From Echinicola arenosa (GTDB taxonomy: Bacteria; Bacteroidota; Bacteroidia; Cytophagales; Cyclobacteriaceae): a stretch of 64,000 nucleotides of DNA. The position numbers and the translations under genes are program-made. Positions 53,953 through 60,043 of the stretch are shown here, in pieces. Within the stretch, counting starts at the first letter, position 1. Every line of letters begins with the position of its first letter. The notes under the pieces were generated by a model. The model was given only the letters and a program-made list of their open reading frames with translations. It was not told the origin of the DNA and ran no database searches. The DNA lies in assembly GCF_014841125.1 (NCBI RefSeq), contig NZ_JACYTQ010000001.1, forward strand, positions 124,001-188,000, given 5' to 3'.

Positions 53953-55845
53953 ATGACCATGATTAAAAAGTTTATCATCGATTTTGACAGCACATTTACT
54001 CAAGTAGAAGCCTTAGATATTTTGGGTGAGATAAGTTTGAGAAATGACCCAAAAAGAGATGAAAAATTAAAGGCAATCAAAGACATCACTGACCTTGGTA
54101 TGGAGGGAAAAGTAACGCTTCGTGAAAGTCTTGAAAAGCGAATCGAAATACTGAATGCCAACAAAGCGCAAATCAGTGAACTTGTAGCTGAATTAAAGAA
54201 AAAAATTTCCAAGTCCTTCCAAAGAAACCGGGAGTTTTTTCAGGAAAATGCCAACAATATATATATCATCTCCAATGGCTTCAAGGATTTTATCACTCCT
54301 GTTGTGGGCGTTTATGGCATTAGTGAAGAAAATGTCTTTGCCAACGAATTTATCTATGATGAAGAGGACAACATTATAGACTTTAACAGGGACAACTTAC
54401 TATCCAAAAACAATGGCAAACCAGAAACCATCAAGACACTTAACCTTGAAGGCGATGTTTATGTGGTGGGAGATGGCTATACTGATTATGAAATCAAAGC
54501 TTCTGGGCTTGCCAATAAATTTTACGCATTTACTGAAAACATCAATCGTCCAAAAGTTTCTTCAAAAGCGGATCATATTGCCCCAAGCTTGGATGAAATT
54601 TTGTATGTTAATAAAATGAATAAGAAATTTTCCTATCCAAAGAGCCGTATCAATGTACTGCTCTTGGAAAACGTTCACCCTATTGGGGTTGAAATCATGA
54701 AGCATGAAGGTTACAATGTAGAAGTTGTAAGCTCTGCCATGTCTGAAGAGGAGCTATGTGAGAAAATCAAAACGGTTTCCATCATTGGGATTCGCTCCAA
54801 AACCCAGATCACCAAAAAAGTATTGGAAAATGCCAATAGATTGATCGCTATCGGCGCATTCTGTATCGGAACCAATCAAATCGATTTAGAAACCTGTCAA
54901 GAAAAGGGAATTGCAGTTTTCAATGCACCTTTTAGCAATACTCGCTCTGTGGTAGAGCTTGCCATTTCAGAAATTATATTCTTGATGAGAAACCTTCATG
55001 ACAAAACCCTAAAAATGCACCAGGGTATTTGGGACAAATCTGCATCAGGAAGCTTTGAAGTAAGAGGAAAGAAACTAGGAATTATTGGCTATGGAAACAT
55101 CGGAGCTCAACTTTCTGTTTTGGCTGAAAGCATGGGCATGCACGTTCTCTACTATGACATTGTAGAAAGGCTGGCACTTGGCAATGCTACCAAAATAGAT
55201 TCATTAGACGAGCTACTGGAAACCTGTGATATTATTTCCCTTCATGTGGATGGGAGAAAGGACAATAAAAATGTCCTAAACAGGGAAAAGATCTTCAAAA
55301 TGAAAAAAGGCTCCATCTTGGTCAACCTAAGTAGAGGACATGTAGTAGAAGTTCCTGCCTTGAAAGAAGCTCTGGAATCAGGCCACTTAGCTGGAGCGGC
55401 AGTAGACGTATTCCCTTCTGAACCAAAAAACAATGATGAGCCATTTGAATCTGAATTGAAAGGCTGTCCAAATACCATTTTGACTCCTCATATTGGGGGA
55501 AGCACTTTAGAGGCACAGGAAAATATTGCCCAGTTTGTACCTGGCAAAATTATCGAGTACATCAACACTGGCAATACCTTCAACAGTGTCAACTTCCCTA
55601 ATATTCAGTTACCTTTCTTGCGTGATGCACACCGGTTGATCCACATTCACCATAACGCTCCTGGTGTACTGGCCAAAATCAACCAAGTGTTGGCAAACTA
55701 CAAAATCAACATTGTGGGCCAATACCTGAAAACCAATGAAAAAATCGGTTATGTGATTACGGATATAGACAAAGCTTATTCGCCAGATGTAATCGATGCC
55801 ATGAAAGAAATAGAAGGCACGATCAGGTTCAGGATTCTTTATTAA
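53953..55845 (+). CDS. serA: fused SerB-like phosphatase and phosphoglycerate dehydrogenase
   Basis: 630 residues, far longer than a normal SerA (about 410). Residues 1 to about 215 form a HAD phosphatase of the SerB kind: IIDFDSTFT with Asp10/Asp12, SNGFKDFI, and GDGYTD near 175. From about 228 a complete D-3-phosphoglycerate dehydrogenase follows: NAD motif GIIGYGNIGAQL, the GRGHVVEVPAL stretch, catalytic-His motif HIGGSTLEAQ and a C-terminal ACT domain. The protein thus joins the first and last steps of serine synthesis; the middle step (SerC) is not in the window. The fused form is known from other Bacteroidota annotations as plain phosphoglycerate dehydrogenase. Either ATG at 53953 or 53959 may be used. 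Confidence 0.9.
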   Translation: MTMIKKFIIDFDSTFTQVEALDILGEISLRNDPKRDEKLKAIKDITDLGMEGKVTLRESLEKRIEILNANKAQISELVAELKKKISKSFQRNREFFQENANNIYIISNGFKDFITPVVGVYGISEENVFANEFIYDEEDNIIDFNRDNLLSKNNGKPETIKTLNLEGDVYVVGDGYTDYEIKASGLANKFYAFTENINRPKVSSKADHIAPSLDEILYVNKMNKKFSYPKSRINVLLLENVHPIGVEIMKHEGYNVEVVSSAMSEEELCEKIKTVSIIGIRSKTQITKKVLENANRLIAIGAFCIGTNQIDLETCQEKGIAVFNAPFSNTRSVVELAISEIIFLMRNLHDKTLKMHQGIWDKSASGSFEVRGKKLGIIGYGNIGAQLSVLAESMGMHVLYYDIVERLALGNATKIDSLDELLETCDIISLHVDGRKDNKNVLNREKIFKMKKGSILVNLSRGHVVEVPALKEALESGHLAGAAVDVFPSEPKNNDEPFESELKGCPNTILTPHIGGSTLEAQENIAQFVPGKIIEYINTGNTFNSVNFPNIQLPFLRDAHRLIHIHHNAPGVLAKINQVLANYKINIVGQYLKTNEKIGYVITDIDKAYSPDVIDAMKEIEGTIRFRILY

Positions 55846-55871
55846 AAACAACACAACTAACCATAACAATC

Positions 55872-55915
55872 AAAAGAGGGAAAATGATTTTTCATTTCTC
55901 TCTTTTCGTTTTTTT
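55872..55915 (+). terminator. terminator after serA
   Basis: Imperfect stem AAAAGAG/CTCTTTT with inner GAAA/TTTC pairs, followed by CGTTTTTTT, 27 bp after the stop. It sits between serA and the convergent RNA gene. Confidence 0.65.
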
Positions 55916-55944: not shown

Positions 55945-56150
55945 AGCAAAAAGCCCGGACCTTAGAGTGTTGCAAACCTCTTTATAGACAAGATTTGAGC
56001 TGCCCGAATTTCGCAACCTTCCACTGTTATCCTGCTTCCGAAGAAACGAGGTCCTGAAATAAATCAGGATGAGGCCTGGTTTTGAAAAAAGGCTTCACTC
56101 GGTATTTTTGTTAATTGTGAAGTTTGAACATGTCGGCGATCCGAGCCTTT
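55945..56150 (-). ncRNA. structured RNA gene, 6S RNA-like candidate
   Basis: About 205 bases. The 5' end GCAAAAGGCUCGGAUC (56153-56138) pairs along all 16 positions with the 3' end GGUCCGGGCUUUUUGC (55961-55946). Three pairs are G-U that would become A-C mismatches on the other strand, so only the minus transcript folds. Inside follow UGUU/AACA plus an 8-bp stem, an AU-rich bubble (18 versus 16 bases), GAGU/GCUC, GCC/GGC, UUUC/GAAA, AACC/GGUU and AUCCUG/CAGGAU, giving one long rod. The exact -7 box TATATTTG sits right at its 5' end and a T-rich run follows the 3' end. A closing stem, central bubble and apical stem are the hallmarks of 6S RNA (RNA polymerase regulator). An SRP-type RNA is the alternative, since CAGG and GGAAGCAG occur near the tip. 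Confidence 0.65.
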
Positions 56151-56152
56151 TG

Positions 56153-56160
56153 CAAATATA
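56153..56160 (-). promoter_or_regulatory. -7 promoter box of the RNA gene
   Basis: Minus-strand TATATTTG, an exact TAnnTTTG, placed so that transcription would begin at the AAAGGCUCGG end of the closing stem. The -33 position holds only TTTA at about 20 bases. Confidence 0.6.
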
Positions 56161-58198: not shown

Positions 58199-58879
58199 TT
58201 ATAATAAAATACTTTCCAATTCCGCGACACTATTCAGGATATAATCAGGTGAGGCTGTCATAAGTTGATCCTTAGTTTGTGCACCGCTCAAGACCCCAAT
58301 GGTCAATCCGCAATTGGCATTTTTACCTTCTTCAATATCAATAGTTGAATCTCCAGCCTTAAGTACCTTTTGGGGATCTTTCACTCCTACAATTTCCATT
58401 GCTTTTAGGATCATATCTGGCTGAGGTCTGCCATTGACCACATCGTCAGCTGTGACAAGTCCATCCATATCTTTTCCAATTTCCCAGCCTAGCTTTGCTA
58501 ATAATCCCAAGGCTGTTTTTCTATCATAGCCTGTGTTTAGCACGACAGAAACCTGATTTGACCGTAAGGACTCCATCAGTTCTTTCACACCAGTAAAGGT
58601 CTTTACATCCAATTCTTCATAGGCCTTAATAAGGCTTGGTTTAAAATTAGCGAAAGCCTTATCTGCAGTTGCTTGTACATTTTTTTCATCAGTGCAAGCT
58701 GTCAAAACATCTATTATAGCTTGATGCTTTTCTTTACCTGCACCAAACTCCAACACCTCTTCAAGGCTTACATTGTACCCTTGATCGTTGATTACTTGCC
58801 TAACTGTTTTGTAGACTACATTATCTTCATCGACAGTAGTACCTGCCATATCAAACACCACCAATTCTATTTTTTCCAT
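58199..58879 (-). CDS. phosphonatase-like HAD hydrolase
   Basis: 226 residues. HAD superfamily with nucleophile motif VVFDMAGTTVDEDNVVY (Asp9, Asp-to-Ala position typical of the phosphonatase side), motif II VVLNTGYDR and motif III/IV KAGDSTIDIEEGKNA. It resembles PhnX-like proteins described as phosphonatase-like hydrolase (TIGR03351 group, from memory). It may cleave a C-P or phosphate ester substrate. It starts 6 bp after the FAD oxidoreductase gene stop, so the two form an operon. Confidence 0.85.
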   Translation of the reverse strand: MEKIELVVFDMAGTTVDEDNVVYKTVRQVINDQGYNVSLEEVLEFGAGKEKHQAIIDVLTACTDEKNVQATADKAFANFKPSLIKAYEELDVKTFTGVKELMESLRSNQVSVVLNTGYDRKTALGLLAKLGWEIGKDMDGLVTADDVVNGRPQPDMILKAMEIVGVKDPQKVLKAGDSTIDIEEGKNANCGLTIGVLSGAQTKDQLMTASPDYILNSVAELESILL

Positions 58880-58885
58880 AACTCC

Positions 58886-60043
58886 TTATTTGTTAAATAT
58901 TTGCTTTACATTTTCATGAGCAAAACCAGCACTACCGGTCATGCCTTTGCCTCCAATTCCCGTTACTATATGGATGTTTTCATCTATGGTCTTTTGAAAA
59001 ATATCCTGATTTTTACACTGAGCGTACATTCCATACCATCGGTGGGCGATTTCATAAGTCGGTAAATCAATGATTTTCTTAGCTTCCTGGATCATAAAAT
59101 CATCAATATCCATATCTAATCCATAGCCCAGATCGTCAATATCGCTGGCGTCCGCATACTGATGGGAATCTCCAAGAATAACCGACCCATCCATAGCCTG
59201 TTTGAAAAGAATGTGTACTCCCCATTTCTTTTCTAAACTATCTGCAGCCTCTTTCTTTTTAATTTCAGCAAATGATGGACATTCATAAAACGCTTCATAA
59301 CGCCTGATGGATAAACCTGTCAATACAGACCCTGGTAACTGATAATTCTCCTGTGGCTTGGTCTGCAACATCTGGAGCTTTGAAACTTCAAGATCACTTT
59401 GGGCAAAAATCTCAGGATACAACATCTTAAAGTCCTTGCCATTACATATTACCACCTTTGAAGCCTCTAACATGCTCCCTAAAGCCATATGAACCAGAAC
59501 CTTTTCTCCTGACTTTTCACAATTTATCACAGTCTGGTTTCTAAAAATCTCCAAACCCTTTTCCCTTTCCAAAAACTCCAAAAGTCGATGAATCATAACT
59601 CTTGGCTCAACAGTCACTTCATCAGGAAAGAACAATCCAGCCTGCACATAATCACTTCTTAGGCCTGGATATTTCTCCAAACATTCCTTCTTGCTCAACA
59701 TAGAGGATGAGTAGTCATTCCCCTTGTTTATCTCATGGAGTTCTTCAATTAACTGCACTTCCTCCTCATTTGAAGCCAAGTAAACAGAGCCATTATTACG
59801 AATGGAAATATCAAATTTAGCCTGGATTTCTTTGTAGATCTTCAAACTTTCCCGACCATATGCCTGCCATTTGGTATTCATCCCAGAAGGAACTACTTGT
59901 CCAAAATTTCTGGTAGTGGCACTCTGCGGTGCCTTATCTTTTTCGACCAAAGCCACCTTAAATCCAAGGTTTAAAGCATGAAAAGCATGAAAGGCTCCCA
60001 AAATGCCCCCTCCTATTACGACGAGATCAAAGTTATTTTTCAT
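58886..60043 (-). CDS. FAD-dependent oxidoreductase linked to phosphonatase-like hydrolase
   Basis: 385 residues, DadA/glycine-oxidase-like fold. N-terminal FAD motif LVVIGGGILGAFHAFHALN (6-24) with downstream VALVEKD, and a C-terminal GIGGKGMTGSAGFAHE for flavin closure. It belongs to the class that is regularly paired with phosphonatase-like hydrolases (TIGR03364 group, from memory) and probably oxidises an amine such as an N-substituted aminophosphonate; this is inference. First gene of the operon; upstream lies a 268-bp spacer. Confidence 0.85.
   Translation of the reverse strand: MKNNFDLVVIGGGILGAFHAFHALNLGFKVALVEKDKAPQSATTRNFGQVVPSGMNTKWQAYGRESLKIYKEIQAKFDISIRNNGSVYLASNEEEVQLIEELHEINKGNDYSSSMLSKKECLEKYPGLRSDYVQAGLFFPDEVTVEPRVMIHRLLEFLEREKGLEIFRNQTVINCEKSGEKVLVHMALGSMLEASKVVICNGKDFKMLYPEIFAQSDLEVSKLQMLQTKPQENYQLPGSVLTGLSIRRYEAFYECPSFAEIKKKEAADSLEKKWGVHILFKQAMDGSVILGDSHQYADASDIDDLGYGLDMDIDDFMIQEAKKIIDLPTYEIAHRWYGMYAQCKNQDIFQKTIDENIHIVTGIGGKGMTGSAGFAHENVKQIFNK

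Follow-up and report, generated by a model that had tools for sequence, protein, structure and literature searches.

What is encoded on the minus strand at positions 55,945 to 56,160 of a 64,000-nt stretch of the Echinicola arenosa genome (the whole stretch is called the window below)? The preliminary description had proposed an RNA gene with its own promoter, closed by a 16-bp stem and 6S-like in form. We hold with high confidence that this interval is the 6S (SsrS-class) RNA gene of the Echinicola strain, with a product about 200 nt in length and a sigma-A-type promoter of its own. The features of the locus are listed in Table 1.

The minus strand of the interval folded at -70.1 kcal/mol, compared with -47.8 ± 4.1 kcal/mol for shuffled sequences (z -5.46; none of 200 shuffles was as good). 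The plus strand folded more weakly, with a z of -2.02 and 4 of 200 shuffles as good. Together with the box TATATTTG and a U run that ends the 3' arm, the minus-strand fold bore out the proposal of an RNA gene with its own promoter. The terminal helix comprised 16 base pairs, all of them standard and three of them G-U, as had been described. Its first G is, however, the last G of the -7 box, and Bacteroidetes -7 boxes occupy positions -12 to -5 according to excerpts of PMC9723704. Because of this overlap and this spacing, the outer ~5 bp of the stem probably lie in the promoter and are untranscribed, which would leave ~10 bp in the likely transcript. When that transcript (56148-55948) was refolded, a closing stem of ~10 bp was kept and the fold was better than 200 of 200 shuffles (z -3.97). 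In an alignment of the genus inspected by eye, the inner ~10 bp of the stem were kept and the outer pairs were not; the RNA and the promoter box were kept, and the sequence farther upstream drifted. The 6S RNAs are described in excerpts of PMC8876501 as rods of ~200 nt with a closing stem, a central bubble and an apical arm, and the modelled fold has this shape.

Table 1. Positions of the predicted RNA, its elements and the convergent gene in the window.
Feature	Position	Strand	Basis
Convergent serA with SerB-like N-terminal domain; outside the RNA	53953..55845	+	NF008759 PGDH, 658.7 bits
Predicted 6S RNA transcript, 201 nt	55948..56148	-	Ends inferred from -7 box and U run
-7 promoter box TATATTTG (consensus TAnnTTTG)	56153..56160	-	Sequence
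Closing stem, 5' arm, transcribed part	56138..56147	-	Fold of 201-mer; flank-pairing test
Closing stem, 3' arm, followed by U run 55948-55951	55952..55961	-	Fold; downstream T-run counts
Inner closing helix (P2-like), 5' strand AAACUU, pairs with 55974-55979	56120..56125	-	Covariation
Inner closing helix, 3' strand AGGUUU	55974..55979	-	Covariation
Central bubble, 5' strand CACAAUUAACAAAAAUACC; proposed pRNA template	56101..56119	-	Column conservation
Central bubble, 3' strand AAAUCUUGUCUAUAAAG; inferred -10/-7-like element AAAUCUUG	55980..55996	-	Column conservation
Helix above bubble, GAGU with GCUC 55997-56000	56097..56100	-	Paired cells
Apical motif AGGCCUCA, 5' side of apical junction	56070..56077	-	(Nearly) invariant A2 columns
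Apical motif CAGUGGAAG, 3' side of apical junction	56018..56026	-	Invariant A2 columns
Apical stem-loop 1	56052..56069	-	Double changes in 6/6 pairs
Apical stem-loop 2	56031..56051	-	Double changes in 6/7 pairs (52 family rows)

The RNA was found to be conserved in relatives. A blastn search with the stretch matched every one of the 11 Echinicola genomes, once in each. Across the family, matches were obtained in 111 of 148 genomes, representing 67 of 84 genera; one genome (G020) carried two neighbouring pieces. A pattern derived from the RNA was matched by 110 stretches in named genomes, and the matches listed (80 of the 110) included Algoriphagus, Belliella, Cecembia, Aquiflexum, Mongoliibacter, Rhodonellum, Lunatimonas, and Litoribacter. 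In 63 of 98 loci, an exact TAnnTTTG was present in the 40 nt that precede the RNA core, compared with 9 of 588 control windows, and at least seven T in 8 nt occurred downstream in 66 of 98 loci, compared with 26 of 480 control windows; the set of 98 was left unthinned, so that near relatives are counted several times in these figures. Three further loci (L097, L099, and L116) lacked the anchor pattern and stand outside the 98-row counts; all three were matched by the covariance model R1 described below. The promoter box and U run, set against their controls, and the position on the strand opposite to the neighbouring genes suggest a free-standing gene.

Pairing was likewise conserved. The flanks that form the closing stem reached a mean of -24.1 kcal/mol with their own partner, compared with -14.5 kcal/mol with partners swapped between loci. 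In each of the 98 loci the native value lay below the mean for that locus's swapped partners, but only in 24 did it beat every one of the 97 alternatives, since such stems are common to relatives. Covariation was evaluated on alignment A2, which consisted of 52 core rows chosen among the 68 of 98 rows with <88% identity, and on which the pairing measures used a structure defined by us. A2 replaced a MAFFT alignment of 48 rows (A1), in which distant rows were shifted and for which RNAalifold predicted 21 pairs, with the closing and inner helices missing. On A2, 92.8% of cells were paired and double changes occurred in 23 of 32 pairs; there were 196 double-change cells, compared with 48.2 in shuffles, and none of 500 shuffles equalled the alignment on any of five measures. 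Slid versions of the structure dropped to 23-57% paired. Absence of pairing conservation in relatives had been named beforehand as a finding that would speak against an RNA gene; the conservation was present. A third alignment (A3) was fitted to a model and contained 85 rows, namely 55 from the family, 10 from the order and 20 of 22 outside hits (without L145 and L149). With other classes included in this way, double changes were seen in 31 of 31 pairs, with 456 double-change cells compared with 101, although these pair counts lean towards the structure, the rows having been fitted to the model.

Among the individual helices, the inner closing helix was paired in 90.1% of cells on A2 and showed double changes in 6 of 6 pairs on A3. 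The GAGU/GCUC helix above the bubble was paired in 100% of cells in the 52 family rows and in 99.4% in the 85 rows. Apical stem-loop 1 had double changes in 6 of 6 pairs on both A2 and A3, and apical stem-loop 2 was the weakest helix on A2, with 85.1% of cells paired. No conserved reading frame was identified: at most 7 of 98 cores were open throughout in any of the six frames, and core lengths occupied all three classes modulo 3, which rules out coding as an explanation, as had been claimed earlier.

The position of the RNA next to serA raises a different reading, namely that the conserved structure is a cis-acting element, either the 3' end or untranslated region of serA or a leader of usp. 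The serA gene was convergent with the RNA in all 62 loci in which it was found, out of 233 RNA-anchor loci counted with duplicates (39 family loci without duplicates), and usp-like matches, some of them weak, were present in 50 family loci. Against this, the RNA lies on the strand opposite to both serA and usp in the window and has its own promoter-like box, and neither gene was detected by tblastn beside any of the loci L126 to L179, in stretches of ~0.3-1.5 kb on each side. We therefore regard a cis-acting element as highly improbable. In E. coli MG1655 (NC_000913.3, 3055983-3058410), ssrS is also convergent with serA, at a distance of 1.0 kb and with fau, sibC, and ibsC in between; the convergence shared by ssrS and the Echinicola RNA is probably a coincidence. 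A free-standing RNA gene is the preferred reading, and its identity was sought through covariance models.

The serA gene itself encodes 630 amino acids, and its N-terminal region matched TIGR00338 (SerB) with 45.3 bits, below the cut-off; no HAD match was found for this region in Pfam at E 0.001. The product perhaps joins a SerB-type HAD phosphatase-like region to phosphoglycerate dehydrogenase, which would place two steps of the serine pathway in one chain. Just 3' of serA, an A/T-rich hairpin followed by a T run was noticed by eye on the plus strand (55870-55915). It looks like the terminator of serA, pointing towards the place where the 6S RNA ends.

A covariance search against Rfam had been suggested in the preliminary description. 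No family reached gathering level in the window, whereas a search in E-value mode gave 11 matches, of which the two highest in bit score were both entries of interest, on the same strand and over the full model: RF01693 (Bacteroidales-1; 25.3 bits, E 0.024, against a gathering threshold of 60) and RF01685 (6S-Flavo; 23.6 bits, E 0.44, against 85). By E-value, RF01685 ranked third, after a plus-strand microRNA model (0.39), and alone was not significant. RF01693 carries the label '6S-Bacteroidales RNA suggested' in Rfam. Among relatives, RF01693 exceeded its cut-off in 0 of 39 genomes, the window locus being the best RF01693 match in its own genome; RF01685 did so in 0 of 118 genomes of the order, and control genomes also gave no match; RF00013 (6S/SsrS) did so in 0 of 19. 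At Rfam cut-offs, no 6S family was flagged in the lineage by these searches. The RF00013 search of the 19 relatives yielded one weak match elsewhere in the genome of the window (C3; 19.8 bits, E 0.16), and since this was all it gave, a second, canonical 6S gene was not evident.

A covariance model (R1) was built from family copies alone, without Rfam. When run against 247 Bacteroidota genomes, R1 matched 29 at E ≤0.01, with one match each, and 22 of these lay outside the family. Twenty of the 22 fitted RF01685 (18 loci) or RF01693 (two loci). Of 20 R1 loci searched first, seven were above gathering at the same place and on the same strand, two with RF01693 (184 and 167 bits) and five with RF01685, and 13 further loci fitted RF01685 at E ≤1.6e-10, below gathering. 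In addition, one R1 locus (L156) gave a weak match to RF00013 (E 0.071), and for another (L141) no 6S model matched at E up to 0.1. These results bear on a further alternative, that of a new RNA class unrelated to 6S whose similar shape was reached independently. Such a class would accord with the failure of every Rfam family to pass gathering, and likeness in shape is by itself no proof of homology; yet a model that owed nothing to Rfam landed on 6S-Flavo or Bacteroidales-1 loci in nearly all of its out-of-family matches, some of them above gathering, and we consider an independent origin exceedingly improbable.

Descent from 6S RNA was followed further with a second covariance model (R2), whose training rows include rows of 6S-Flavo type. 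R2 matched 51 of the 247 phylum genomes at E ≤0.001. It also matched positions 55968-56136 of the window with 153.9 bits, a score to be read with the same sequence in its training set. Among 22 new loci, 19 were run against Rfam (L158-L160 were left out): eight fitted RF01685, for nine, no match to a 6S family was seen at E 0.1, and two fitted RF00013 (39.3 bits, E 8.5e-5; 35.8 bits, E 5.7e-4). Neither of the two RF00013-matching loci (L165 and L166) was in the R2 training set, and by eye their inner closing helix, above-bubble helix, bubble strands, and apical GCC/GGAAG were placed as in R2. Compared by eye through L165, the inner closing helix of the window RNA sits where RF00013 has GAgCC/GGuUC. 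E. coli ssrS was not found by R2 at E up to 10, and the link to SsrS rests for this reason on intermediate loci below RF00013 gathering. Within the order, R1 and R2 each matched 18 of 118 genomes, eight of them in the same family as the window, strict filters losing weak matches.

A chain would thus run from the window RNA through the family-wide RNA and the 6S-Flavo and Bacteroidales-1 loci to loci of deep Bacteroidota lineages and RF00013. The coincidence of R1 loci with RF01685 and RF01693, and that of R2 loci with RF00013, support common ancestry with accepted 6S RNAs, so that the 6S-like form noted earlier reflects homology beyond likeness in shape. Since its scores fall below the gathering thresholds of RF01693, RF01685, and RF00013, the RNA is placed in the 6S class and under no Rfam entry. 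It is a strongly diverged Cytophagales member of the 6S class that present Rfam models overlook. The earlier label of an undescribed RNA holds insofar as no Rfam family was reached at gathering, but the class is described, and members have published transcript evidence: excerpts of PMC7366714 report detection of a 6S homologue in Bacteroides thetaiotaomicron with evidence for two pRNA classes, and excerpts of PMC9723704 name 6S RNA among the RNAs detected in Flavobacterium psychrophilum. A description of a Cytophagales 6S RNA was not found in literature titles and abstract openings; Wehner et al. (2014) may list candidates.

The RNA differs from each of the three Rfam entries in its own way. 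It shares with Bacteroidales-1 a full-length alignment and two apical stem-loops flanked by GGCC and GUGGA, and R1 found two loci of that entry (L146 and L157); the closing-stem sequence and the loops are different. With 6S-Flavo it has in common the helices and the bubble strands AAACUCAACA and CAAANCUUGU, whereas the rows of 6S-Flavo type lacked the two apical stem-loops in the alignment. For 6S/SsrS, the order and place of the closing stem, inner helix, bubble, above-bubble helix, and apical GCC/GGAAG are alike when compared by eye via L165 and L166, whereas direct reach is lacking in both the RF00013 and the R2 searches.

Conservation in the bubble was examined in the 85 rows of A3. On the 5' strand, the trinucleotide ACA was retained in 84, 82, and 76 rows for the first A, the C and the second A, respectively. 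A U stood two bases past it in 65 rows, so that a pRNA would begin with A. On the 3' strand, the motif C-N-UGU was retained in 84 rows for C and in 85, 81, and 79 rows for U, G, and U; it resembles TAnnTTTG in part only. The three pairs between ACA and UGU were possible in 78, 82, and 84 of the 85 rows, and the bubble may for this reason be partly closed at rest. In a narrow test for a release hairpin in the 3' strand, 93 of 98 loci fell below their own shuffle mean; swapped partners were beaten in only 50 of 98 (values below the locus's own swapped mean), and the hairpin is therefore without covariation support. No signal came from folding the 3' bubble region as a whole 44-mer, for which the mean z was -0.22 and 51 of 98 loci fell below the shuffle mean.

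According to excerpts of PMC8876501, 6S RNA imitates an open promoter and holds the housekeeping holoenzyme until freed by pRNA synthesis, with a -10-like element in the 3' bubble strand, a -35-like element in the apical arm, and a release hairpin that forms in the 3' bubble strand following pRNA synthesis. By analogy, the Echinicola RNA most likely mimics an open promoter, thereby binding sigma-A RNA polymerase, and is freed by pRNA synthesis. Transcribed from its own sigma-A-type promoter, TATATTTG, as an RNA of ~200 nt, it would fold into the likeness of a melted promoter: the apical arm would correspond to the upstream (-35-side) DNA, the A/U-rich bubble at the centre to the transcription bubble, and the closing stem to the duplex DNA downstream. 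In this form it would bind the housekeeping sigma-A holoenzyme and keep polymerase off promoters as nutrients run out. Upon return of NTPs, polymerase would use the 5' bubble strand as the template for a short pRNA, with the predicted start 5'-AAUUGUGAAGUUUG templated by positions 56113-56126 and initiation opposite the U at 56113/56114. Its synthesis would open the inner closing helix and release the polymerase. We infer the transcription ends, binding, pRNA, release, and physiology from the 6S class.

A 6S-derived RNA might also have ceased to serve as a pRNA template and holoenzyme mimic and taken another role, for example core-polymerase storage in the manner of Ms1. The actinobacterial Ms1 RNA, described as structurally related to 6S and unlike 6S in binding core polymerase, shows in excerpts of PMC9130861 that a 6S-related RNA can do so. 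Moreover, the apical junction of the Echinicola RNA had more invariant columns on A2 than the bubble, and it is not obvious that mimicry of a promoter would by itself demand this. The bubble strands are conserved, however, as far as 6S-Flavo and Bacteroidales-1 loci, and the Bacteroides homologue comes with pRNA evidence (excerpts of PMC7366714); a changed role is accordingly considered very unlikely, and a working 6S RNA remains the preferred reading.

The apical arm was not a plain duplex. Between AGGCCUCA and UAACAGUGGAAG it held two stem-loops that covary, and long stretches of the arm were invariant on A2. The exact sequence GGCCTCA was present in 52 of 55 family rows, in 6 of 10 other rows of the order and in 12 of 15 rows from outside the order that were not of 6S-Flavo type; unlike the window RNA, both Bacteroidales-1 loci (L146 and L157) were among the three rows lacking it, and none of the 24 rows of 6S-Flavo type had it. 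The exact sequence GTGGAAG was present in 11 of the same 15 rows. The apical part with AGGCCUCA and CAGUGGAAG is unusually conserved, and a role in contacting polymerase is only putative. Our proposal, which is tentative and about which we are more doubtful than hopeful, is that the three Rfam entries and the Echinicola RNA form one 6S lineage, in which the Bacteroidota apical junction domain (AGGCCUCA - stem-loop - stem-loop - UAACAGUGGAAG), absent in Flavobacteria and under tighter constraint than a mere duplex requires, would serve as a dedicated site of contact with the divergent sigma-A/RNA polymerase of Bacteroidota or with a partner protein. If this were true, the 6S RNA of Bacteroidota would be more than a plain promoter decoy, as it would carry an extra module for regulation or binding.

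The nine R2 loci that matched no 6S model (L161-L164 and L167-L171, from other classes of the phylum) contained GGCCTCA in 9 of 9 cases and GTGGAAG in 8 of 9. We regard them as candidate 6S genes from deep lineages of the Bacteroidota.

6S RNA acts as a brake on transcription globally, and the Bacteroidota promoter is unusual, with TAnnTTTG at -7; comparison of the bubble strands can therefore show which promoter features a 6S RNA must copy. R1 and R2 reveal a 6S RNA that is present and widespread in the family, and join 6S-Flavo, Bacteroidales-1 and canonical 6S via intermediate loci. The gene, its likely start, the predicted pRNA, and the conserved apical domain are now defined precisely enough for testing.

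Elsewhere in the window, a gene for a PhnX-like phosphonatase hydrolase (TIGR03351, 243 bits, over cut-off) was observed on the minus strand within 58199-60043, adjoined there by a gene for a TIGR03364 FAD-dependent oxidoreductase (424 bits, over cut-off). The two are likely a phosphonate-degradation pair.
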